From Candidatus Naiadarchaeum limnaeum (GTDB taxonomy: Archaea; Undinarchaeota; Undinarchaeia; Undinarchaeales; Naiadarchaeaceae), in contig DVAB01000004.1 of assembly GCA_014189685.1 (NCBI GenBank), positions 1 through 30,317 of the forward strand: a DNA stretch of 30,317 nucleotides. The letters run 5' to 3'. Under the pieces are notes generated by a model. The model did not search any database, was not told where the DNA came from, and was given only the letters and a program-made list of their open reading frames with translations. Within the stretch, counting starts at the first letter, position 1; every line of letters starts with the position of its first letter. The translations under genes were made by a program, and so were the position numbers. Positions 310 to 13,506 of this stretch are shown here, piece after piece.

Positions 310-1389
310 CTAGCCAACAATCTCAACTCGGAATCTCAATAGAGCTGCCAATCCGCCAATTCCTTCCAATTGCTTCCCTAGGTCGTGCTCATTGCTCACA
401 ATCAAAATTTCACCGCGCATATCATAAATATTTTTCAAAAGCTCATCTATCTGCTTGTTTTTTTCAATCTTCGATTTTTTTAAAGTGCTGTTTGAAATAA
501 GCAAAGTTTTAATCGCGCCCAAGTTCATTGCATATTCAACGTTTTTCAATCCATAGACAGCCAATCCTAAGTTTTTTGAAAATTCCTCAAAAAATTCTGT
601 TAATTTTTTTACTTCTTGCTGGACTTTCCACTCTTTTATTATTCTTTCGATAATTCCACGCTTTATAATTTCTTGTAATCCGCGCTCCCCTCCGGTTGAG
701 ACGTTTTCAATTACAGCCTTTACCGCTAATTCAGATTTTTTTTCCTTAAAATATTTGTAAAAATTATCTTTGTAAAATGCAGGCCCAGCAATAACTATCC
801 TATCTAAACCCTCTGCTTCATTTTCTATTGCATCTAATAAATCCTCAAAAAATGAAATTTCTTCTGCGCGCTTTTTCTCTGGCTCCTTTTTTCCGCTCAA
901 AGTTTTACTTATAGTTCCGCTTAATTTTACTCCATACTCCCTGAGCAATCCGAATGAGCACAATCCATCCTCAATAGCGAGCAAGAGAATTTTTGCTTTA
1001 ATCGCTTTAGAAGCATCCTCAACTTTAATTAAATCTGCTGTTGTCCAGATGTCTTTTGTAACTGTTAAAACCATTCCTGGCCGCAGGTTCAAAGTATGGA
1101 AATCTCCTGTTGCAACAGTTTCCGGGCCTTGATAGATTCTCCCTGTTACTCTCAATCTATCAATTGTGCGATCGAATTCAACAGTTTCAACTTGAATTTC
1201 AAGAGTAACAGCCTCCTTTGCAAGCCTTTCAGCCCGCTCAATTCCTTGCCTGTAATCAATTCTTCTTTTTGTTCTAGAGATAACGCGGTCGTCTTTATTC
1301 AAAATATCAGCTAAATAGTACAAATCGTCCGCTACTTCTAGGCGGAATACGATTCTTCCTTTTTTCAAATCTTTTTTAATTATTTTCAT
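310..1389 (-). CDS. pelA: Pelota (archaeal Dom34), ribosome rescue factor
   Basis: Archaeal Pelota enters the empty A site of stalled ribosomes with aEF1A or ABCE1 and starts ribosome splitting and mRNA surveillance. The 359-residue length and three-domain order fit the family: an Sm-like N-terminal domain (about 1-130, starting MKIIKKDLKKGRIVFRLEV), a central eRF1-2-like domain (about 131-265, with AGPAFYKDNF at 201-210 and STGGERGLQEII at 231-242), and an eRF1-3-like C-terminal domain (about 266-359, with YGLKNVEYAMNLGAIKTLLI and the closing GGLAALLRFRV). No GGQ peptide-release motif is present, which separates Pelota from aRF1. An A/T-rich TATA-like block at 1415-1430 overlaps the stop of the upstream gene (1434). 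The ATG at 1389 matches the conserved N-terminus. Identification is firm. Confidence 0.95.
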   Translation of the reverse strand: MKIIKKDLKKGRIVFRLEVADDLYYLADILNKDDRVISRTKRRIDYRQGIERAERLAKEAVTLEIQVETVEFDRTIDRLRVTGRIYQGPETVATGDFHTLNLRPGMVLTVTKDIWTTADLIKVEDASKAIKAKILLLAIEDGLCSFGLLREYGVKLSGTISKTLSGKKEPEKKRAEEISFFEDLLDAIENEAEGLDRIVIAGPAFYKDNFYKYFKEKKSELAVKAVIENVSTGGERGLQEIIKRGIIERIIKEWKVQQEVKKLTEFFEEFSKNLGLAVYGLKNVEYAMNLGAIKTLLISNSTLKKSKIEKNKQIDELLKNIYDMRGEILIVSNEHDLGKQLEGIGGLAALLRFRVEIVG

Positions 1390-2523: not shown

Positions 2524-3351
2524 ATGGCAGCTGCTCATTCTAGTAAACAGGCAGAATTAAAGCCCAAGCACAGAAGAAATTTGCGAAAGTACGCGAAGCT
2601 TTTGCACGGATTAGGAGTTGATGTCTCTGAGCATGTTGAGAGGCTTGAGCTGGATGAGAAAGAGCTGAATGAATTTCGCGCGAAATTTGGAAAAGAAACT
2701 TTTCTCAAGCCTGCTGACCGCACTAAACTTAAGCAGATTTTAACTAGAGTTTTAAATTTAATGCGAATATTTGTAAGATTTGAAGATACTCTTTGGGAGC
2801 AGGTTGCCCCTCTAACTCTTGCAGCCTACCGGAAAGAAATTTTCTCAACAGACTTAATTGAGCTAAAAGCGGTGCGCGAAATATACTCCGCATTATATCA
2901 GAAAAAAGCAGCACAATTAAAAGTTGATCTCCCAGCTGCGCGCAGTTTAATTCTTTCATCAATTGCAATAGAACACAGAGAACTTTTTACACTATATCCA
3001 AGGCTTCTGAGCGATGTTGAAAAAGTTATTTCAGAGCTTGTTGAATTTGAACTGCGCTTTGCAAAAGTAGAGCACGATTTAAAAGACAGATTTTTGGAGC
3101 TGAATAAAAATCTGCGCAAGCTTTTGCACGAGGATACTTATTTTATTACAAAAGACCTTGCAAAAATCTATGATTTGCGCTTAAGCGTGTATAACTGGAT
3201 TGTTCAGATTGACCATGAAGTAAAGCCGCCAATTATTCCAAAAGCTGCTGAAGAAAGGGAGCAATTAATTTCCGCGCGCAACTTTTACCTTGGCACTTAC
3301 AAACAACATGTTCAAAACATTGCTCAGATTTATTTGAGAGGTGTGAAGTAA
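2524..3351 (+). CDS. Hypothetical all-helical cytosolic protein, partner of the 3351 membrane protein
   Basis: Unrecognised 275-aa protein. It has no signal peptide or membrane segment, is rich in Leu/Glu/Lys/Arg, and shows long heptad-like helices (for example about 150-210, with ISELVEFELRFAKVEHDLKD). That predicts an elongated helical bundle. The N-terminus is basic (KPKHRRNLRKYAKLLHG). The TAA stop at 3349-3351 overlaps the ATG of the next gene at 3351 in a TAATG junction, so translation is very likely coupled and the two products probably work together. A cytoplasmic adaptor for the large membrane protein is the natural reading, but that is inference. A TATA box at 2495-2505 places transcription start close to the ATG. 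Confidence 0.75.
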   Translation: MAAAHSSKQAELKPKHRRNLRKYAKLLHGLGVDVSEHVERLELDEKELNEFRAKFGKETFLKPADRTKLKQILTRVLNLMRIFVRFEDTLWEQVAPLTLAAYRKEIFSTDLIELKAVREIYSALYQKKAAQLKVDLPAARSLILSSIAIEHRELFTLYPRLLSDVEKVISELVEFELRFAKVEHDLKDRFLELNKNLRKLLHEDTYFITKDLAKIYDLRLSVYNWIVQIDHEVKPPIIPKAAEEREQLISARNFYLGTYKQHVQNIAQIYLRGVK

Positions 3352-6191
3352 TGGCAATTCAAGATTTTCTTGCAGGAAACTTTTTGGCATTTGCAGTAAT
3401 TGCTTCAGGGAGTTTGTGGATGCTCCTTGCGATTTTTGCCCCCTTTAATAAAGCTGTGGGAAAAGCTTTGAGCAGTGCAATTCCATGTATCGGAAGTTTA
3501 TGCGCTTGCTTCTGCGGATTTTTTGGTCCGTGGCTTCAGCCGCTCACAACAATCATGCTTTTAATCTATACAGTTGCAATGCTGATATTCAATCCATTGC
3601 CGATTGCAATTGTGCTGGCGATAATCGGAATTTTTGTTGGTGTTTTTGGAGTTCTGCTTAAAAAATTGCCGCCGCACGAGCTTGAGATAATGGGAATTCC
3701 TTTTGCAAGCAGAAAATACAATTCATTCTGGATGGTTCTCTTTAGCATAGGAATGATTTTTTATACAATGTTTCTGTTCCCAATTGGAGCGATTTTTGGA
3801 TTTATCTTTTTAATTTTGCTGGTTGTTGGTGTTATTGCAGGAATTGTTTTAATTGCAGTTTTTGCCCCTGAGGTTGTTGCGCCAATGGCAGCAGAATTAG
3901 GAGTTGGAGGAGCAGCAGCTGGAATGGCAGGCGTGGAAGGAGTTGCTGCTGGCGGAGAAATGATGGGTGGAGGAGAATTTGCAGGCATGGCTGAACAAGG
4001 CGCAGGTGCTCTTAGAGGAATGGGCGCAGCTGGAAAAGGCATGGGGGGTATGGGCGGAATGCCTGGGATTGGAGCAGAAGAGCAGAGCATGGTGCAAGAG
4101 GTTAAAGGCGTGCAGCAAAACATTGTTAATGAGGCTGAGGGGGCTCTCGCTGCACAGAGGACTGCATCTCAAACAGAGATTGCGTCAGCACAGTCTGAGC
4201 TAAAAGAAGCGCAGAAAGCAAAAGACCCGCAGTTGGAACAAACAGCACGGCAAAGATTGAATAGTGCACAGCAGCGCTTCCAAGAATCAGGTGAGCGCTC
4301 ACAAAAATTGTTTGGCTCTTTACAAGATTCAACAGAGGACTCAGAAGGCGGTAGATTTGGAAGGCATTTTGATAGTTCTGGAAAAATGGCAACTTGGGAA
4401 ATATTAATACTTGGAATACTTGTATTCTTTTTTGTAATAGTTGTTGCCGCATATGTTATACCGGAGAATACTCCTGCATACAATGGAGTCAAATTTTTAT
4501 TTGATGGCATTAAATTTGGAGTGGATGCTATATGGCGCGGTATTTTAAATTTTGGAGACTGGCTAATTAGTTGGCTCGGGTCGCAATTCACCCCATGTGA
4601 AATCGGAGCAACAGGAGTTCCTTGTAAAATTTTGCAACAGCGGTCATGCGAGCCATTCTGTATCTCGCCATCTGGCCGCGAGGCTCCATGGAAAGGATTT
4701 GAAATTAAAAAGCTTGAGGTTGTTCCTGCAACAATATTTGATTATCAGAAATTTTCAATCTTGTCAGAATTTGCAAATGAGGGCTCAGGGGATTCAACTT
4801 TTGCAACTGTGGGTGAGCCAACATTTGGCTTTTTCCAGGCAGGCGGAAAATTGAGATGTGAATGGGGTCTTGGCGGAATAATTTTCTGGGAGCCTACATG
4901 CAGAAAAGTTTTCCCTATTGTGGAGGGCTCATCTATAACAACTTTAACATCCGGAAAATGCGCAAAAGCTGGAGGAGAATTTGAAGCTCCATGCACTCTT
5001 GAGCCAGGGGAGGTTTCTCAGATGAGATGGTTTGGCTTTGATATTGAGGAAGGAGTTATTAGAAAAGGAATAACAGTCAAGCCAGATATTTCAATTTCCA
5101 TGGATTATTTCTTTTTGGTTCCAAACGATGTTGTTGGAAGCATGGCAGTGCAAACTTTCCAAGAACAATTAGCAACTTCTACTGTTGAAAAAAAGGAAAA
5201 GAGAATTATAAACAAAATCAATCGTGTTTATTCACCGCCCGGACCGCTTATGATTGCGATGGGAACTGCAGAGGATCAGGTGATTTCAACTATTCCAACC
5301 CTCTTCTTAGTTCAGTTTGCTAATAAAGGGAAAGGAGTTGTAAGTGAGCTTCACAAAGAAAAAATGAAACTTTATCTCCCTCCTGACTTTAGGCCTTACC
5401 AATCACCTTCTGGTGAGGAAATTTGTGATTTTGAAACGTTGTGGCACAGCGATCCTAATGGAGATGGTGTAATAACATTAGCCGATCTTTCCCCGATAGA
5501 AAGAGAAAAATGGAATCCAGGCCCAGGATTTGAAGACCATATTATTTATGAGCCAAACGAAAGCCTGCTTGAAATTGCTCAAACAAGAAATCCTTTAGAG
5601 ACGCCTACTTACTTCTGCGTTTTAAACACTCCTGTTAATGTTGAAAAAGTTAAAACTTATGATTTCAAAATGCGCGTAACTGAATATCTTTACACAGAAT
5701 CAAAGCGCACTCGCCTCTCAATTATGGGAACAGCACTTGATGTTACTCCTGCTACTACACCAGCAGGAGAACAAACTAAATCATTTAGTCTTGGGAGATG
5801 TCCACTTAGAACTGGTGGGTGGTGCTCATCCCATCAGACTCTAGAGTTTAAAGATGAAAGTGGAAAAAATCCTAAAGAGTATAATGTTAAAGAAATAACT
5901 GTAAATGCAAGGCACGGAGGAGAGTGGGGATGCGCAGATTCGCGTATTTTAATTACAGCACAAAATGCTGCTGGCGGAAATGTTCCGCCTCCTGAAAAGC
6001 TGCTCAGTGATCCAAATGCACCGCTTGGTATAACAGAGCCTGCCCCATCACAGGGTAGGCGTGGAATAACAGTGGTATTTCCAGAAGCTGTTAGAATTCA
6101 AAAAGTTAGGGCAGCAAGTGTTGGCCATGGATTTGGCATTCCATGTCCTTTCATAGATGATGTTACTGCAGTAATAACATACACGGAGTAG
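3351..6191 (+). CDS. Large multi-pass membrane protein with Gly-rich linker, coiled coil and exterior beta domains
   Basis: Unrecognised 946-aa protein. Residues about 8-175 hold several hydrophobic helices (for example LAFAVIASGSLWMLLAIF and FILLVVGVIAGIVLIAVFA). Residues about 176-245 are a Gly/Ala/Met-rich low-complexity stretch. Residues about 247-320 form a charged, Gln/Ala-rich coiled coil. A further membrane helix lies at 349-371 (WEILILGILVFFFVIVVAAY). The remaining 570 residues are beta-rich, have paired cysteines, and presumably lie outside the cell. Two segments, near 'FANEGSGDS' and 'FANKGKGVV', resemble the Ig/CARDB-like strands of the lipoproteins that follow. At 701-712 the sequence DPNGDGVITLAD matches the DxNxDGxxxxxD calcium loop of dockerins and EF hands. 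It overlaps the upstream gene by 1 nt and sits 45 nt before the lipoprotein array. A surface-complex scaffold is plausible but unproven. Confidence 0.8.
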   Translation: MAIQDFLAGNFLAFAVIASGSLWMLLAIFAPFNKAVGKALSSAIPCIGSLCACFCGFFGPWLQPLTTIMLLIYTVAMLIFNPLPIAIVLAIIGIFVGVFGVLLKKLPPHELEIMGIPFASRKYNSFWMVLFSIGMIFYTMFLFPIGAIFGFIFLILLVVGVIAGIVLIAVFAPEVVAPMAAELGVGGAAAGMAGVEGVAAGGEMMGGGEFAGMAEQGAGALRGMGAAGKGMGGMGGMPGIGAEEQSMVQEVKGVQQNIVNEAEGALAAQRTASQTEIASAQSELKEAQKAKDPQLEQTARQRLNSAQQRFQESGERSQKLFGSLQDSTEDSEGGRFGRHFDSSGKMATWEILILGILVFFFVIVVAAYVIPENTPAYNGVKFLFDGIKFGVDAIWRGILNFGDWLISWLGSQFTPCEIGATGVPCKILQQRSCEPFCISPSGREAPWKGFEIKKLEVVPATIFDYQKFSILSEFANEGSGDSTFATVGEPTFGFFQAGGKLRCEWGLGGIIFWEPTCRKVFPIVEGSSITTLTSGKCAKAGGEFEAPCTLEPGEVSQMRWFGFDIEEGVIRKGITVKPDISISMDYFFLVPNDVVGSMAVQTFQEQLATSTVEKKEKRIINKINRVYSPPGPLMIAMGTAEDQVISTIPTLFLVQFANKGKGVVSELHKEKMKLYLPPDFRPYQSPSGEEICDFETLWHSDPNGDGVITLADLSPIEREKWNPGPGFEDHIIYEPNESLLEIAQTRNPLETPTYFCVLNTPVNVEKVKTYDFKMRVTEYLYTESKRTRLSIMGTALDVTPATTPAGEQTKSFSLGRCPLRTGGWCSSHQTLEFKDESGKNPKEYNVKEITVNARHGGEWGCADSRILITAQNAAGGNVPPPEKLLSDPNAPLGITEPAPSQGRRGITVVFPEAVRIQKVRAASVGHGFGIPCPFIDDVTAVITYTE

Positions 6192-6236: not shown

Positions 6237-7583
6237 ATGAAAACTCACCACTCACAAAGAGTAAAATTACTCTCTGTGTTAGTCCTAGTAGCAGTTGTAG
6301 TTTTTGCAGGATGTATTGGACGTGGTGGAGGGGATAGAAAATTTCTTAATTTTGGCGAGGATGCTTTAAAAATTGCTATTGATACGGAAGGCAGAAGTAC
6401 TTTTGACAGCCTTCAGCAATTCACAGTAACTGTTACAGCAGAAAATATTGGCAAATTTGATGTTTTTAATGTTACTTCGCGCTTGCAGGGATATGATGGA
6501 ATAACTTCAACAGAAACTCCACGTGCTCAGCTTTCAGATGAGCGCTCATTAAGTCAATCCACTCTTGATCGCCCGCAGCCAGATAAAAAAGTTGCAGGCG
6601 GCACAGGCAGTGTTGATTGGGATGTTGCTGCTCCATTTGTTCCAGTTGATTCTCCTGATAGAGAACTTATATTGACAGGGGAGGCTATTTATGATACAAA
6701 AAGTTTGGCAACTCAAAGAGTTGTTGCTGCAACAAGAACTCATGTTGTGAATTTAGAGGCGCGCGGGGAAGCAGTTCCTGTAATGCCTGAAACAGATGCA
6801 TTAAACGGTCCAATTGCGATTGATGTTGAGATTCCAGTTCCATATGTAAAAGTTATTGGAAAGAGAAATGATTTCCCAGTTAGAATTCACTTGAATAATG
6901 ATGGCTCAGGGACATTGTTGAACAGAGAAATTGGGGAGTTTGATTTTTTAAGCAAAGTTATTATGAAAGTTCCCCCTGGGGTAGGAATTGATGCAAGAAA
7001 CTGCGACTTTGTTCAAATTGGCACAACAGATATTGGATTGGAGAAAACTTTGATAATTGATTTGTCAAACAACAGACAAAAACTCAGACTGCTTGAGGGC
7101 GGAGCAACTAGAGATATGAACTGCAGACTCTATGCAGATTCCGAATTTGTAACAGGCTACAACACTTTTGATTTGAGCATAGCTGTATATTACACTTACA
7201 TACAAGATGTTTCAAAGCGCCTCTTAATAAAAGGAACAGAACAGGCTCCTCTAACAATAAGAATATTAGAGCCAACAGAGGCAAACACAGATGACTGGAT
7301 AAGAAACACTGTGCATTCAGTTAAATTCGAGGCCATCTATCAGAATATTCCGGTTACTACTGCCTTAACACTCGCAGATGTACGCGCGGCTTTAGATGGA
7401 ACAGACGCAGAAGAAATTGACTTGACATTTGATACTGCACAGGATGCGTGGATTTTAAGAGTAAGAACTCCGGATATGGGAACAGCATCTGCTACATTTG
7501 ACTTAACATTGGATGTGAACTTCCAGGCAGAGAGTGGAAGTGACACAGAGAACGATGCAATTAACTACTCACCAACTCCATAA
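6237..7583 (+). CDS. Surface lipoprotein 1 of 5, CARDB/Ig-like modules plus extra C-terminal beta domain
   Basis: The 448-aa product has an n-region MKTHHSQRVK, a hydrophobic stretch, and lipobox VVFAGC with the lipidated Cys at 26, followed by a Gly-rich spacer. This predicts a lipid-anchored extracellular protein. The first beta module (about 43-160) contains 'TVTAENIGKFDVFNVTS', the same strand-turn-strand signature seen in the four following genes. A second module (about 190-320) contains 'PVRIHLNNDGSGTLLNREI'. Unlike its neighbours it has a third, Thr/Asp-rich beta segment (about 335-448, LTIRILEPTEANTDDW onward). The substrate or partner is unknown. The membership in the family is a by-eye alignment of recurring motifs. 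A TATA box precedes it, and the next gene starts 15 nt downstream. Confidence 0.8.
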   Translation: MKTHHSQRVKLLSVLVLVAVVVFAGCIGRGGGDRKFLNFGEDALKIAIDTEGRSTFDSLQQFTVTVTAENIGKFDVFNVTSRLQGYDGITSTETPRAQLSDERSLSQSTLDRPQPDKKVAGGTGSVDWDVAAPFVPVDSPDRELILTGEAIYDTKSLATQRVVAATRTHVVNLEARGEAVPVMPETDALNGPIAIDVEIPVPYVKVIGKRNDFPVRIHLNNDGSGTLLNREIGEFDFLSKVIMKVPPGVGIDARNCDFVQIGTTDIGLEKTLIIDLSNNRQKLRLLEGGATRDMNCRLYADSEFVTGYNTFDLSIAVYYTYIQDVSKRLLIKGTEQAPLTIRILEPTEANTDDWIRNTVHSVKFEAIYQNIPVTTALTLADVRAALDGTDAEEIDLTFDTAQDAWILRVRTPDMGTASATFDLTLDVNFQAESGSDTENDAINYSPTP

Positions 7584-7598
7584 TAAGTTTTGATAAAA

Positions 7599-8525
7599 AT
7601 GAAAAGGAACAGATTTTTTCTGATTGCAATTGTACTTGCTTTTGTAATAGTTGCTTCTGGATGTCTTGGCCCAAACAAACCACAGGGAAGACTTCCTTCA
7701 CAATTTCCAGGCCTGATTATAACTAATTTTATTTCTGATTTCCCCCAAATAGATGCAGGGGAGCGCATGAGCGTTGAAGTTGATTTTGATAATGTTGGGG
7801 ATGAGGTTGCGCGCGAAGTAACAGGAGTGCTAATTCGAAGAGGAGCATTCCAAGTTAATCCCTTTATCCAGAGCTTACCAGCAGACCTTGAGCCTCCAAT
7901 CACAGATGTTCCAAGCGGGGATGCTTTTATTTGGGAATTAACAGCTCCTCAAGTAACTCAGGAAAGGATTGAGGAAGTTCAGGCGCGCGTATTTTATAAA
8001 TACGAAACACAGGGCTTTGGAACCATTAATTTTGTACCGCGAGATATAATAAGAGAAAAAGGAATTTCTGCTTTTCAAATTGACCCAAGCACAAGCTTAG
8101 GCCCATTAGAGGTTGAAGTTGTTGCAAACCAGCCTGTTGTTCTTAGAAATCCCATATCACAAAATGTTTCACTTCGAGTTACAGTATTGATTTCAAATGT
8201 CGGCCCAGGGAGAGTTGAAAACGAAACATTTAGCGGGGGCTGCAACAAGGCTCTTGACTGCATTGATTCTGTAAGGATAGAAGGATTCGGAGTTTCATGC
8301 AGGGATGCAAGTACCTCTGGGGATGTTTCTGCTCTGCTCCCATTGGACAGAAAATTTGATGGGGTACGATTAGTAGAAGGAAATGAGGGTAAGTTAACAG
8401 AAGTTGTCTCTTTCCTTGTTCCAGATGCCAGTGCTGCAACAAGCTGCCAGATTAAAGTTACTGCTACTTATAGGTACAGAGTTGACAGCGATGTTTTAAA
8501 TCTCAGAATAGAGCCAGTAACATAA
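7599..8525 (+). CDS. Surface lipoprotein 2 of 5, two Ig-like modules only
   Basis: The 308-aa product starts MKRNRFFLIAIVLAFVIVAS with lipobox VASGC (lipidated Cys 22). A TTG nine bases earlier (7590) would add three residues; the ATG at 7599 gives the normal short basic n-region and is preferred. Module one includes 'VEVDFDNVGDEVAREVTG', and the link region includes 'ARVFYKYETQGFGTINF'. Module two includes 'LRVTVLISNVGPGRVENE', with a Cys pair (GGCNKALDC) and a further pair near the end. The protein stops after the strand 'IKVTATYRYRVDSDVLNLRI', so it appears to be the minimal two-module version of the family. It is 15 nt after lipoprotein 1 and has no clear promoter of its own, so the two are probably co-transcribed. 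Confidence 0.8.
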   Translation: MKRNRFFLIAIVLAFVIVASGCLGPNKPQGRLPSQFPGLIITNFISDFPQIDAGERMSVEVDFDNVGDEVAREVTGVLIRRGAFQVNPFIQSLPADLEPPITDVPSGDAFIWELTAPQVTQERIEEVQARVFYKYETQGFGTINFVPRDIIREKGISAFQIDPSTSLGPLEVEVVANQPVVLRNPISQNVSLRVTVLISNVGPGRVENETFSGGCNKALDCIDSVRIEGFGVSCRDASTSGDVSALLPLDRKFDGVRLVEGNEGKLTEVVSFLVPDASAATSCQIKVTATYRYRVDSDVLNLRIEPVT

Positions 8526-8559: not shown

Positions 8560-10041
8560 ATGAAAAGTCTAAACAAGCTTTTAGTTATTTCACTATTAGC
8601 CATAGTTTTAATTTTTTCAGGATGCATTGGAGGCGGAGATAGAAAAAATCAAACTTTTGGCTCTGGGCTGAATGTTATTTCTTTCACTGCTCTAAGACAA
8701 GTTGATTCTGCTGAGCAATTTGATTTGGATTTAGTTGTCCAAAATATTGGAGATAAAGACGCAACAAACATTCAAGCAGATCTTTTTCAAACATCTGCAA
8801 TTACAATTCTAAACAATAGAGTTCAAACAGAATCAAGACTTTTGCCTCCAGATATTGAAAAAGGAATTGAAGGAGAGGATACAATTTTTTCTTGGAGCCT
8901 TCAAGCTCCAACACTTACAGAAGACCAAACAAAATCTTTGCAAGCAAGAATAACTTATGATTACACAAGCACTGCAACTTCTAATTTGTACATAGTTTCA
9001 AAAGCTGAGCTAGATGAAAAAGGTGCGCATGCTTTTCCAACTTATTCTACTAGTTCGCGCGGCCCAGTAACCTTGAGTATTGTTGAAATGCCTCCTTTCA
9101 AAGTTACTTCAGGACAAACAAACGCTCGCGTTCAAGTTAACCTAATAATTGAAAATACCGGATTTGGCCGCGTTGTAAATAATGAAGTTAGAGATTTTGC
9201 AATTGTCTTAAAAGGAGAAGGAACTGAGCGTGATATAACAAATAATTGTCCAGATATAGTGAGCGGAAGAATTAAATTATATGGAAAGGAGCAGGAGCGC
9301 TCAATCAGATGCTCACTTGTTTTGCCATTTTCTGAAACTGCTGTTTCTTATATTGTAGAGGCAGAAATGGGTTATACATATTATATTGATACAAATCCGC
9401 TTGCAGTTAGAGTAAAGGGTGGTACTGGAACTAGCAGTACTACTGTGATTACTTACAGACAACCAGCATCACTACAGAATGAGCCTATTGGAGATTGGTG
9501 GGATGATATAGTGGATATATGTGTCGACAAATGGGGACTCAGAGACCCCTATTTTATAGCAGCTATTGTAAAAAAAGAGAGTTGGTTTGACGCATCCGCA
9601 TTCAACGCTGGTGAAAAGCAAGCTTGGGAAGCTTACCAAAGCGGTCAAACAACTGTCAAGCCCTGGCACGAAGAATACTATGGAAAAGGATTAATGCAGA
9701 TAACTGGCCCATGGATAGCTGGAGTTCCAAGGCCAAGCACTTTTGAATGGCAATACAATATGCCGCCTGAAGCAATACAAACTCAAGCTCCAGTGATGAC
9801 AGATGCTTATAACGGAAGGCAAAATTTAGACAGAGGCTGCTGGTATATGAAAGCGTTGCTCAATCACTATGGCAATGACCAGTATAAAGCAGCAACAGCT
9901 TATAGGTTTGGCTGGCAGGGTACTGATGCTGGTTCTTTTGATCCTTATGATAATAATTATGTCAATGATGTCTTCAGGTATAAGAGCGAATATTTGCAAA
10001 ATGTCGGCTATACAGAAAATCAATTTCCAAGCAGACCATAA
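8560..10041 (+). CDS. Surface lipoprotein 3 of 5 with C-terminal lytic transglycosylase (SLT/lysozyme-like) domain
   Basis: 493 aa. Lipobox IFSGC (lipidated Cys 22). Two Ig/CARDB-like modules follow (about 35-160, with 'LDLVVQNIGDKDATNIQ'; about 168-288, with 'VQVNLIIENTGFGRVVNN'), then a Ser/Thr linker (about 288-300). Residues about 311-493 match the SLT lysozyme-like fold: IAAIVKKESWFDASAFN with the expected catalytic Glu at 340 followed by Ser, GLMQIT at 377-382 (family motif GLMQ), a helix with NLDRGCWYMKALLNHYGND, and AYRFG at 447-451 in place of the usual AYNxG. These enzymes cleave the MurNAc-GlcNAc backbone of peptidoglycan, a polymer archaea lack. The target is therefore probably foreign, or an unusual glycan. 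I infer a lipid-tethered, outward-facing enzyme aimed at another cell. Activity is unproven. Confidence 0.85.
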   Translation: MKSLNKLLVISLLAIVLIFSGCIGGGDRKNQTFGSGLNVISFTALRQVDSAEQFDLDLVVQNIGDKDATNIQADLFQTSAITILNNRVQTESRLLPPDIEKGIEGEDTIFSWSLQAPTLTEDQTKSLQARITYDYTSTATSNLYIVSKAELDEKGAHAFPTYSTSSRGPVTLSIVEMPPFKVTSGQTNARVQVNLIIENTGFGRVVNNEVRDFAIVLKGEGTERDITNNCPDIVSGRIKLYGKEQERSIRCSLVLPFSETAVSYIVEAEMGYTYYIDTNPLAVRVKGGTGTSSTTVITYRQPASLQNEPIGDWWDDIVDICVDKWGLRDPYFIAAIVKKESWFDASAFNAGEKQAWEAYQSGQTTVKPWHEEYYGKGLMQITGPWIAGVPRPSTFEWQYNMPPEAIQTQAPVMTDAYNGRQNLDRGCWYMKALLNHYGNDQYKAATAYRFGWQGTDAGSFDPYDNNYVNDVFRYKSEYLQNVGYTENQFPSRP

Positions 10042-10073: not shown

Positions 10074-11057
10074 ATGAACAAGAAATTAATTCCAATCCTA
10101 ACTTTAATAGCAATAGCATTTATTGTAGGCTGCCTTGAACGCGGTGGAGATGGAATAAAAGAAGGCTATCCAGGAGTTATAGTAACAGATTTTACTCCAA
10201 CAATTTCAACTGTGCGCGCCGGAAGTCCAATAGATTTTTTTGTAACAGTTCAAAATCAAGGATTTTTTGATGCGCAGAATGTAAATATTTTAATTTTTAA
10301 TTGTGGCCCCTCAAACACAGGAAAAAGCTCTGCAAAAACTCCTCCTGATTACGATTACACTTGCAATAATCCGGTATTTCAAAATGATTTTAATCTTGCA
10401 AAGCCTGACCGCGATTTAGGAATTGTAGGAGAAATAAAAGAGGCTGAAGTTTCTCTTGACACAGACCCTGCAGGTTTTCCGGAAGGAAGAAGCCCACAAA
10501 CTTTTACTGCCAGAGTTATTTATGATTACAAAACAACAGGGGCAATCGATACAGTATTTACAACTTTTGCAAACTGGAAAGAAAAATCAGGAAGAATAAC
10601 AACAGGCCCGCTTAACATGTTTAGCGAGCCAGCTCCTCTAACTTTATTTTTGAATGCACCTCGGGAGCCAATTGTAATTGACAATCCAGCCAATCAGCAA
10701 AATTTCACAGTAGGATTATCAATTAGAAATACCGGAGGAGGATTTGTTAAGGATAAACTTTTAACTAAAATAAAACTCTGCTATAACCCACAATTTATTG
10801 AGCCTGTTCTAGACACTGTAACAGGGCAACATGGTGATTTCAATCGCACAATTGAGGGGGGAAATTGTTTGGTTGTGCTCCCTGGAAACGATAATCTAAA
10901 ATTAGTCGGATTAACAAATCAATACAGGGACGTTGATGCTCGATTTAGAAATGTTCCCAACGCAATTAAAATTCAGGATGTAACAACATTTGAGGCTGAA
11001 CTAACATACGCATACACTTATGATAGATCAACAAGTGTAACGATTTTGAATGCTTAG
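10074..11057 (+). CDS. Surface lipoprotein 4 of 5, two Ig-like modules only
   Basis: The 327-aa product starts MNKKLIPILTLIAIAFIVGC (lipidated Cys 20). Module one opens with 'GVIVTDFTPTISTVRAGSPI' and continues 'FVTVQNQGFFDAQNVNI'. The bridging strand is 'ARVIYDYKTTGAIDTVF'. Module two has 'FTVGLSIRNTGGGFVKDKLL', and the protein ends with a strand of the type 'AELTYAYTYDRSTSVTI'. These strand signatures recur at equivalent positions in all five lipoproteins. Like lipoprotein 2 it lacks any C-terminal cargo. Its TAG stop abuts the ATG of lipoprotein 5 with no gap, so the two are almost certainly co-translated. No enzyme motif is visible; an adhesive or structural role is inferred. Confidence 0.8.
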   Translation: MNKKLIPILTLIAIAFIVGCLERGGDGIKEGYPGVIVTDFTPTISTVRAGSPIDFFVTVQNQGFFDAQNVNILIFNCGPSNTGKSSAKTPPDYDYTCNNPVFQNDFNLAKPDRDLGIVGEIKEAEVSLDTDPAGFPEGRSPQTFTARVIYDYKTTGAIDTVFTTFANWKEKSGRITTGPLNMFSEPAPLTLFLNAPREPIVIDNPANQQNFTVGLSIRNTGGGFVKDKLLTKIKLCYNPQFIEPVLDTVTGQHGDFNRTIEGGNCLVVLPGNDNLKLVGLTNQYRDVDARFRNVPNAIKIQDVTTFEAELTYAYTYDRSTSVTILNA

Positions 11058-12233
11058 ATGAAAAAACTAATCCCCTTTCTCATATTTATAGGAATTTTCT
11101 TAACAACAGTTTCTTTTTCAGGGTGTATAGGAAAAAAAGCAGAATGCCCTGTTGTTGTTTCACAGACAGAAGGAGTTGTCATAACAAGATTTGAGCCTTC
11201 TTATGACTTAATTCCTGTTGGCGATATTATAGGGTTAGTTGCAGAAATACAAAACAGGGGAAATGCAAGAGCGCGCAACATAAACTTAACATTATGGGCC
11301 CATCCTGGATTTTTACTTTTGGATAAAGATCCCTATAAGGATGGTATAACAAGGCGTGGGCTTGCTGATTTAGATAAGACAGACGCAACTATGGATGCAC
11401 CCCGATTAGATATATGTAGCGCAGGAGATTCTCAAGTTGTGCAGTGGCAATTGCAAGCTGGCTGCGACCCTCGCGAAACTCCTCTGGCAATTGCAGTTGA
11501 TTATGATTACGAGTCAGATGGATGGGCATCTGTCTTTATTGTTAGTTCAGAAGAATTCAGAAAAACAGGCGGGAAGTTTTCTGAAAAAGGCCAGAACTTT
11601 CCATCCGCAGGCCCGATTCAAGTAATTATTGAACCATTGCAGACAGAGCCTGTTATTCTAAGTCGATCTGCTCCAAACTTTGATGTCCGAGTTAAATTTA
11701 AAAATTTGGCAGATGGAGTTGCAGGAATAGAGGGAAGCGGCAATCTAGCTTTAGTAGAACTAACAGTTCAAGGACCTTGCAGATTTACTGAATTAAATGT
11801 TGGCCGAGATCCTTCTGATGACCGAAGGATTACATGGGGAACTTATCCCTACAGAAATCAAGTCACTTTGCGCGTTGGCGAGCAGGAAGCTTTTAAAATT
11901 GCCAAGCTTGAATATGATGATAATTTTGATAATTTTGTGAAAGATTTTTGCAGAATAAACGCTAATGTTGATTATCACTACAGAGTTGTTGAGGAAGTAA
12001 GGAAAAAGGTTGGAATAGCAGGGTCATCATCCCAAGTTAAAGAGTGCAGGGTAGGAGCTACTTGTACAGATGCTTGCAGGCAAGATGGTTTTGACTATGG
12101 AAGATGTGTTCCAGAAGAGCTTGCTGTAAGCGATACAATCCCAGATTTGTGTGGAATAGGGTCGGATACAACTTTAATTTGTGAGTGTAAGAATTTCCCA
12201 GAGGGCCCAGGTGAAAGGCCAGTTAGCGGTTAG
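11058..12233 (+). CDS. Surface lipoprotein 5 of 5 with Cys-rich CS-alpha-beta-like C-terminus
   Basis: 391 aa. Lipobox VSFSGC (lipidated Cys 23). Module one has 'GVVITRFEPSYDLIPVGDI' and 'LVAEIQNRGNARARNINL'; the bridging strand is 'AVDYDYESDGWASVFIV'. Module two has 'FDVRVKFKNLADGVAGIEG', ending near 'NANVDYHYRVVEEVRKKV'. After a Ser-rich hinge, residues 330-391 hold seven cysteines (330, 336, 340, 350, 365, 375, 377). The arrangement is C-x5-CxxxC, a GxC (Y-G-R-C at 350), then CxC (375-377). This is the spacing of CS-alpha-beta peptides such as insect drosomycin and scorpion toxins, with one additional cysteine. A disulfide-stabilised binding or toxic tip on a lipoprotein is inferred; a chance Cys-rich module is the alternative. 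It starts directly after the stop of lipoprotein 4. Confidence 0.8.
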   Translation: MKKLIPFLIFIGIFLTTVSFSGCIGKKAECPVVVSQTEGVVITRFEPSYDLIPVGDIIGLVAEIQNRGNARARNINLTLWAHPGFLLLDKDPYKDGITRRGLADLDKTDATMDAPRLDICSAGDSQVVQWQLQAGCDPRETPLAIAVDYDYESDGWASVFIVSSEEFRKTGGKFSEKGQNFPSAGPIQVIIEPLQTEPVILSRSAPNFDVRVKFKNLADGVAGIEGSGNLALVELTVQGPCRFTELNVGRDPSDDRRITWGTYPYRNQVTLRVGEQEAFKIAKLEYDDNFDNFVKDFCRINANVDYHYRVVEEVRKKVGIAGSSSQVKECRVGATCTDACRQDGFDYGRCVPEELAVSDTIPDLCGIGSDTTLICECKNFPEGPGERPVSG

Positions 12234-12240
12234 TATAGTT

Positions 12241-13482
12241 TTAATATTCCCCTAAAGTTTTCTGCGGTTTTTTCTTTTTTGCTATTCCAGAAATTTTTGC
12301 CACTCCGTAAACTCCATCATAACCAGGAATAATCTCAATTTTTCCTTCTCTGTTATCAATTATTAACTTTACAAGTTTTTCATCAACAGCTTTTTTTAAT
12401 TCGCTTTCATTTGTTTCAAGTAAAATATTCAATTCATTCTTAAATTTTCCAATTAACAAATCATAAATTTCAAAAACTTTCTTTGAATGAGCTTGTTCCA
12501 AGCCCAAATATCCTGCAATTACTTCTGCGAGCGGAATTAATCTGTAAAAATCTGGCTTTCCTTTTGGTTTAAATCCATCTTGACGATCTGCAAGCTCATC
12601 CACTCTATGAAGAACTCCAATTGTTAATTTGCGGCCGCATTTTGGGCATTTATTATTTTTCGCAATTGATTCTTTCGGGCTTAAAGAAATATTGCAAGAC
12701 CTGTGGCCATCAAAATGATATTTTCCATAATTCGGGTCAACTTCAATCGTTCCAAGAAAACCTTCTCCTGTGCGAATTGCTTTAATTAAATTTTTATAGC
12801 TTAATTCAATATCCAAAATGTTGCACTCGCGGCCCATTCTCCATGGCCAATAGCTGTGCGAATCTGAATTTGAAACTAAAGTAAAGCGGTCTAATTTACT
12901 TAATCTCCAATTCATTTGTGGATCGCTTGAGAGTCCGGTTTCCAAAGCAAAAATTTCATTGCTCTTATCTAAAAAACATTCCTCAACAGAATTAAATCCT
13001 GAATTGCTCCCGAAAATTGAAAACCACGGAGTCCAAGCATGCGCAGGGATTATTTCAATTTCTTTTGAGATTTCTTTTAACTTTTCAACTAATTCGACAC
13101 AGGAAAAAGTAAAAGTTGGGCGGCCATCTTCTTTCAAATTTCCTTTATCTTTTAAGAAATCACTTATTTGTTCTACAGTCTCAAAATTAGGTGCCAATAA
13201 AATGTTATGAATTTTTCTAATTTTTCCATCCTGTTCATAAATATTTGAAATCTCAGCCTGCAAAACAAATGGAAATCCGTTATTGCTTTTGTAAATTCCC
13301 TTCTCATCCTCTTTCAATTCGCGCTTTAATTCCTTAATCCATTCAGGATGGGTAAAATCCCCTGTGCCCAAAAGTGAAAGCCCTTTTTTCCGTGCCCAGT
13401 ATTCAATTTTTTCTAAACTTAAATCTTTACTGCACGCTCGACTGAATCTTGAATGTAAATGTAAGTCTGCGAACAATTTCAT
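12241..13482 (-). CDS. Endonuclease Q (PHP-type DNA repair nuclease)
   Basis: EndoQ, described from Thermococcales, nicks DNA 5' of deaminated bases (uracil, hypoxanthine, xanthine) and abasic sites. The 413-aa length and motif order match. The PHP metal site has D6-H8-H10 (ADLHLHSRFSRACSKD), GTGDFTHPEW at 39-48, E77, H92, H148 and SDSH at 206-209. The zinc part has C263, C279-xx-C282 and the strongly conserved 'LTIGVLHRVDELADR'. A GTG at 13497 would add five residues. I choose the ATG at 13482 because a TATA-like block (13507-13515) lies about 29 nt upstream and because family members start at the PHP strand. It is convergent with lipoprotein 5 (7-nt gap) and divergent from the aminotransferase. 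With Ogg2 at 22589 it gives the cell two base-damage repair entry points. Confidence 0.9.
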   Translation of the reverse strand: MKLFADLHLHSRFSRACSKDLSLEKIEYWARKKGLSLLGTGDFTHPEWIKELKRELKEDEKGIYKSNNGFPFVLQAEISNIYEQDGKIRKIHNILLAPNFETVEQISDFLKDKGNLKEDGRPTFTFSCVELVEKLKEISKEIEIIPAHAWTPWFSIFGSNSGFNSVEECFLDKSNEIFALETGLSSDPQMNWRLSKLDRFTLVSNSDSHSYWPWRMGRECNILDIELSYKNLIKAIRTGEGFLGTIEVDPNYGKYHFDGHRSCNISLSPKESIAKNNKCPKCGRKLTIGVLHRVDELADRQDGFKPKGKPDFYRLIPLAEVIAGYLGLEQAHSKKVFEIYDLLIGKFKNELNILLETNESELKKAVDEKLVKLIIDNREGKIEIIPGYDGVYGVAKISGIAKKKKPQKTLGEY

Positions 13483-13506
13483 TATCCCACAACCCACTCT
13501 TAATAT

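Follow-up and report, generated by a model that had tools for sequence, protein, structure and literature searches.

In Pacearchaeota and Woesearchaeota, large extracellular proteins with murein-type transglycosylase domains were described in 2021, and the domains were proposed to act on bacterial walls (PMC8204110), and the work on DPANN transglycosylases was extended in 2022 (PMC9723730). Murein scavenging by DPANN archaea has been proposed (PMC11537232), and Strock et al. (2025) reported archaeal murein hydrolases that kill bacteria, under a definition that requires both a catalytic domain and a wall-binding domain (PMC12352652). SLT domains on DPANN archaea are already published. The window analyzed in this study is the entire 30,317-base contig of an archaeal genome that is 984 kb in size and 98% complete, and it encodes a 493-residue lipoprotein with an SLT domain, designated lipoprotein C (positions 8560 to 10041, forward strand). 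Similar to the fam00969 transglycosylases (Castelle 2021), lipoprotein C is a predicted DPANN surface protein with an SLT-type domain that is read as acting on bacterial walls; however, going by the descriptions, fam00969 consists of very large proteins of two lineages, whereas the SLT domain of the window is located on a small lipoprotein in a pelota-linked cluster. Like the modular archaeal peptidoglycan hydrolases of Strock et al., lipoprotein C is an archaeal protein that is predicted to be exported and has a murein-hydrolase domain, but Pfam recognizes SLT alone and no wall-binding domain in it, and LysM was not found genome-wide; thus, a survey of that type would miss this protein. The new element seems to be the position of the SLT domain, which is an exchangeable addition to a pelota-linked surface cluster of wide distribution.

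The lipoprotein C gene is a single open frame with an ATG start, and the features of the gene given in this paragraph lie on the forward strand. The signal peptide contains the lipobox IFSGC (8608 to 8625), the Cys of which is invariant in 13 of 13 aligned lipoproteins; lipidation at C22 and exposure at the cell surface are predicted from this sequence. Two Ig-like β-sandwich domains (8665 to 9417) are common to the other lipoproteins of the cluster. In the AF2 model, this region takes the form of β-sandwiches (pLDDT about 70 to 86), and its matches in the PDB are Ig/FnIII adhesion modules. A Ser/Thr-rich linker, GGTGTSSTTVITYRQPASLQNEP (9418 to 9489), joins the lipoprotein body to the SLT (GH23-type) domain (9490 to 10038), in which the codon of the catalytic residue E340 is at 9577 to 9579.

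Residues 329 to 451 (positions 9544 to 9912) match the Pfam SLT profile PF01464 with 30.7 bits (E = 2.5e-7), against a curated cut-off of 21.3 bits, and this is the sole SLT match of the Pfam profile across the genome. With E340-S341 and GLMQIT in place, the domain that had been read from the sequence alone is real. In an alignment of 33 SLT sequences (the window domain, 28 other archaeal SLT domains, and E. coli Slt70, MltC, MltD, and MltE), E340 occupies the column of the catalytic Glu, which is common to 32 of the 33. The GH23/SLT lytic transglycosylases (Slt70, MltC, MltE, and LtgA; PF01464) and the window domain share the catalytic Glu-Ser pair (E340-S341 in KKES), GLMQ (GLMQIT, residues 377 to 382), the AY motif, and an all-helical order, with identities over the trimmed domain of approximately 22% to MltE and 21% to MltC. 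Unlike those enzymes, the window domain has AYR in place of AYN, carries two insertions, and is found in an archaeal lipoprotein. The AYN-x-G position reads AYRFG (at residue 447), in which the Tyr is kept and the Asn is replaced; the AYR variant is also present in the closest relative, and E. coli MltE likewise deviates from the exact AYN motif in the alignment. The first insertion, of approximately 20 residues, lies between ES and GLMQ, and the second, of approximately 30 residues, follows GLMQ. The ES, GLMQIT, and AY motifs that the sequence-only reading had placed at the spacing of the family are present, but the two insertions depart from that description. C321 and C427, both of which are also present in the closest relative, possibly form a disulfide bond.

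The structure models of the SLT domain, which are based on a two-sequence alignment, are of low confidence (pLDDT 55, pTM 0.56). Nearly all of the solved structures that resemble the model at this confidence have the GH23/lysozyme fold, i.e., Slt, LtgA, MltC, MltD, MltE, MltF, goose lysozyme, and a GH23 chitinase; the best match to this pLDDT 55 model has a Z-score of 8.0 (rmsd = 3.3, 126 aligned), and the GH23-fold chitinase of Ralstonia sp. A-471 has a Z-score of 7.7 (rmsd = 4.5, 137 aligned). The lower part of the same list includes a GH19 chitinase and phage endolysins. The modeling that had been suggested as a check points to this fold at low confidence, with models too poor to judge the groove.

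The genes that surround the domain are archaeal in appearance. Pelota has its three eRF1 domains, and eIF2-alpha, PCNA, and the primase small subunit were read from the translations of the same contig, so that the SLT gene is not bacterial contamination. No Mur ligase other than FolC was found in the 98%-complete genome, which makes a wall of the organism's own an unlikely substrate of the SLT domain and agrees with the earlier description of an archaeon that has no murein wall; both Mur_ligase_M matches, considered as candidates for murein synthesis, are FolC-like. The presence of two FolC-like genes (G000:C39 and G000:C15) in a genome of less than 1 Mb is an observation in its own right. An M23 domain was not found elsewhere in the genome in a genome-wide search. 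These results support the view that the archaeon, which lacks murein genes, has an SLT domain that faces outward, is lipid-anchored, and is apparently intact.

The closest relative of the SLT domain is found in Candidatus Diapherotrites archaeon E14_metabat.bin.47 (JAUSKK010000040.1), with 41% identity over 197 residues. This relative is a free-standing secreted protein of 321 residues, and it shares with the window domain the insertion after GLMQ, the cysteines, and the equivalents of E340, S341, GLMQ, and the AY tyrosine; unlike lipoprotein C, it has neither a lipobox nor Ig domains and adjoins a HerA-type ATPase gene. That HerA/DUF87-type ATPase gene (L048:4019-6335) is directly 5' of the Diapherotrites SLT gene, which begins 55 bp downstream, and it hints at a transfer machine. 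The subfamily was found in 1 of the 87 genomes of the Diapherotrites phylum that were searched and was absent from the other 86. In a small SLT tree, the window and Diapherotrites domains are paired with 99% support, and the remaining branches are mostly weak. Relatives of the window SLT were found neither in the phage and plasmid collections nor in viral contigs, and a genome_contigs search with two short patterns only gave none beyond the Diapherotrites genome. As a control, the SLT of another archaeon matches 343 plasmid records, compared with none for the window SLT, which indicates that the window SLT is divergent. The sequence-only reading had proposed a phylogeny to see whether the donor is bacterial; these searches do not show a bacterial donor, as the nearest SLT is archaeal and the phage, plasmid, and viral sets contain none, although what is generally known of the family makes an origin in bacteria plausible. 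The base composition gives no clear sign of recent transfer: the GC content of the SLT segment is 0.422, against 0.412 ± 0.029 for the cluster, and its GC3 is somewhat high (0.351 against 0.284 ± 0.044).

In three order mates, the ortholog of lipoprotein C is 38 to 40% identical across the lipoprotein part and stops at the linker, where the SLT domain of the window starts, and none of the five order-mate genomes has an SLT domain anywhere (the phylum comparison set is six genomes, all of one order). The best interpretation is therefore that an older lipoprotein acquired SLT at its C-terminus through a fusion specific to this lineage; a loss of SLT in the order mates is a conceivable alternative.

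Lipoprotein C is the third of five tandem lipoproteins encoded 3' of a polytopic membrane protein. Pelota (Dom34-type, eRF1 domains 1 to 3; 310 to 1389, reverse strand) is a divergent conserved neighbor, and the genes that follow are all on the forward strand: a 275-residue soluble protein of unknown function (2524 to 3351), with a one-base overlap with the start of the membrane protein gene; the polytopic membrane protein of 946 residues with seven predicted TM segments and an Ig-like ectodomain (3351 to 6191); and, on either side of lipoprotein C, lipoprotein A (448 residues; 6237 to 7583), lipoprotein B (308 residues; 7599 to 8525), lipoprotein D (327 residues; 10074 to 11057), and lipoprotein E (391 residues; 11058 to 12233). 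The five lipoproteins are paralogs of one family, and lipoprotein C has its lipobox, two Ig-like domains, profile match (the window is one row of the profile), and position in the cluster. The same cluster is found beside the same genes in three order mates. Just downstream of the lipoproteins, a protein of the TIGR00375 family (below the model cut-off) is encoded at 12241 to 13497, and similar N-terminal sequences occur downstream of the array in distant genomes (L058:4287-5558 and L063:11449-12732); a TIGR00375-type protein may be part of the conserved neighborhood. The lipoprotein C gene had been credited with its own TATA box and thereby with the possibility of separate regulation. The TTATAT sequence approximately 28 nucleotides upstream is a 7/8 match, which occurs by chance in about a quarter of 45-nucleotide stretches at such an AT content, and the TATA scores of the neighboring genes are similar; with a match at the level of chance and the gene inside a conserved same-strand cluster, this claim is not supported.

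The gene order that recurs in other archaea is pelota (divergent), a single-TM protein of approximately 380 residues, a polytopic protein with an Ig-like ectodomain, DUF63 (on the other strand), and three to five lipoproteins; in the window, the single-TM and DUF63 genes are absent, and the 275-residue soluble protein is in their stead. The lipoprotein-family profile finds matches in 137 of 394 archaeal genomes (E ≤ 1e-3), mostly genomes near 1 Mb and many with tandem arrays; the weakest of the 137 may reflect general similarity among Ig domains. Pelota is inside the retrieved stretch at 38 of the 80 mapped loci. Iterated profiles unite most of the polytopic proteins in one family, and that of the window is reached from two seeds; direct profile comparison of the window protein gives a weak link to the polytopic protein of G344 and no match to those of G319 and G284. 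A published description of the pelota-linked cluster was not found in the literature searched, and one may exist. Lipoprotein D has Asp-rich DGDGIPD repeats in two order mates (G003, L043:5033-6220; G004, L041:6158-7351) and a lectin-like stretch in a third (G005, L042:7576-9204); the sequence set that includes this stretch gives DUF1554/Endostatin matches. These differing inserts indicate that the gain of surface domains extends to several lipoproteins of the array. In a further order mate (G001, L040, ORF 1-2493), the C-terminus of the polytopic protein consists of Cys-rich repeats (VCGAQNHxDHND), i.e., another tail at the same place.

Among 53 proteins that are either polytopic or large and located at the corresponding place in the cluster, 6 have a hydrolase tail above the Pfam cut-off. 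The tail is SLT in G319, G344, and G129, a GH73 glucosaminidase in G284 and G082, and an M23 peptidase in G256. In G071, a gene beside the lipoproteins encodes SLT together with Amidase_2 (7.4e-28). Since G344 and G129 belong to one family, the armed clusters represent about six lineages, or seven with the window. SLT, GH73, M23, and amidase are, every one, murein-hydrolase families. The SLT domains of different clusters do not form a single clade in a tree with weak supports, which fits repeated recruitment. SLT domains lie near lipoprotein arrays only modestly more often than by chance: 4 of 35 are within 5 kb, against 0.49 expected (P = 0.0014; P = 0.013 with the window omitted). The argument thus rests more on the kind of enzyme, the recognized extracellular domains being all murein-acting, than on the count of proximity. 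Most clusters, including those of all readable order mates, have no recognized murein hydrolase, so the complex needs none. By eye, the polytopic protein of G175 (L060:5115-7172) has a lysozyme/SLT-like tail (MVAESGLGS ... AYNNG) that is unrecognized by Pfam, and SLT proteins at L052:7006-9138 (G208) and in L019 (G135) have a pair of hydrophobic helices resembling VirB2/TrbC pilins.

The reading that we prefer, and to which we give about an even chance, is that the SLT domain is a GH23-type transglycosylase module on a conserved archaeal surface complex and cuts the murein of a bacterial partner or prey at the point of contact. The polytopic membrane protein and the tandem Ig-domain lipoproteins, encoded beside pelota, would form the complex, through which the Ig-like adhesive domains would project from the archaeal membrane. 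On contact with a bacterium, the tethered SLT domain would cut murein locally between MurNAc and GlcNAc, with E340 as the acid/base, and the opened wall may be used for attaching, for taking up material, or for delivery. In other lineages, another murein cutter would take this place on the complex. This reading builds on the domain with its intact catalytic Glu and on the lipobox, on the comparison with the order mates that reveals the fusion, and on a cluster that recurs and has other hydrolase domains elsewhere. Points against it are the change from AYN to AYR, the insertions near the groove, the absence of a known wall-binding domain, and the lipid anchor, which limits the reach of the domain to contact. 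The sequence-only reading had listed a bacterial partner or prey, a host glycan, and a repurposed binding fold side by side; GH73, M23, and amidase plus SLT in the same cluster elsewhere favor the first, and the other two may still apply.

The best-surviving alternative, which we nonetheless regard as unlikely, is an active GH23 enzyme that acts on a glycan other than murein, for example a chitin-like polymer of GlcNAc, the glycan of an archaeal host's S-layer, or the organism's own surface glycan during assembly. The Ralstonia chitinase among the closest structures and the divergence of the subfamily, with its insertions around the motifs, are consistent with such a substrate. Many characterized DPANN partners are archaea, which also counts in its favor, but the M23, Amidase_2, and GH73 domains that the cluster has in other genomes suggest murein as the substrate and not a single sugar polymer common to them. 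It is quite improbable that the protein is an antibacterial or scavenging weapon that kills neighboring bacteria or feeds on dead walls by digesting them, with no part in attachment: precedents are the bacteria-killing archaeal peptidoglycan hydrolases (PMC12352652) and the proposed scavenging of murein by DPANN archaea (PMC11537232), whereas the lipobox suggests that lipoprotein C is anchored rather than released, and it belongs to a multiprotein surface cluster. We are similarly doubtful that the SLT domain is catalytically weak or dead and kept as a wall-binding adhesin. The AYRFG sequence, both insertions near the motifs, and the adhesive appearance of the cluster (Ig domains, and a lectin-like DUF1554 match in one lipoprotein) would fit an adhesin, but E340, S341, GLMQ, and the AY tyrosine are kept even in the 41%-identical Diapherotrites relative, and MltE too lacks the exact AYN motif. 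Finally, a VirB1-like accessory that clears the recipient wall for a type IV secretion or conjugation machine is very improbable: the window resembles the VirB6 and VirB1 logic in coupling a murein cutter to a polytopic protein and its membrane complex, and the Diapherotrites SLT gene follows an ATPase gene, but no VirB4, secretion ATPase, or other secretion component was recognized by Pfam among the ten proteins scanned around the gene, no secretion ATPase was recognized in the other ORFs of the window, and the polytopic protein has no Pfam link to VirB6.

The cluster locates some predicted archaeal murein hydrolases that would be missed by surveys demanding a wall-binding domain. The hosts of most DPANN archaea and the means of attachment are an open question, for which the cluster offers a named gene set to test. 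We tentatively suggest, as a possibility that is less likely than not to be right, that small-genome (DPANN-type) archaea share a pelota-linked envelope complex as a general contact device and that lineages attaching to, or preying on, bacteria equip it with interchangeable murein hydrolases (SLT, GH73, M23, or amidase), so that the tail domain would reveal the domain of life of the partner. Hydrolase arming would then be a genomic sign that could separate bacteria-associated from archaea-associated lineages.
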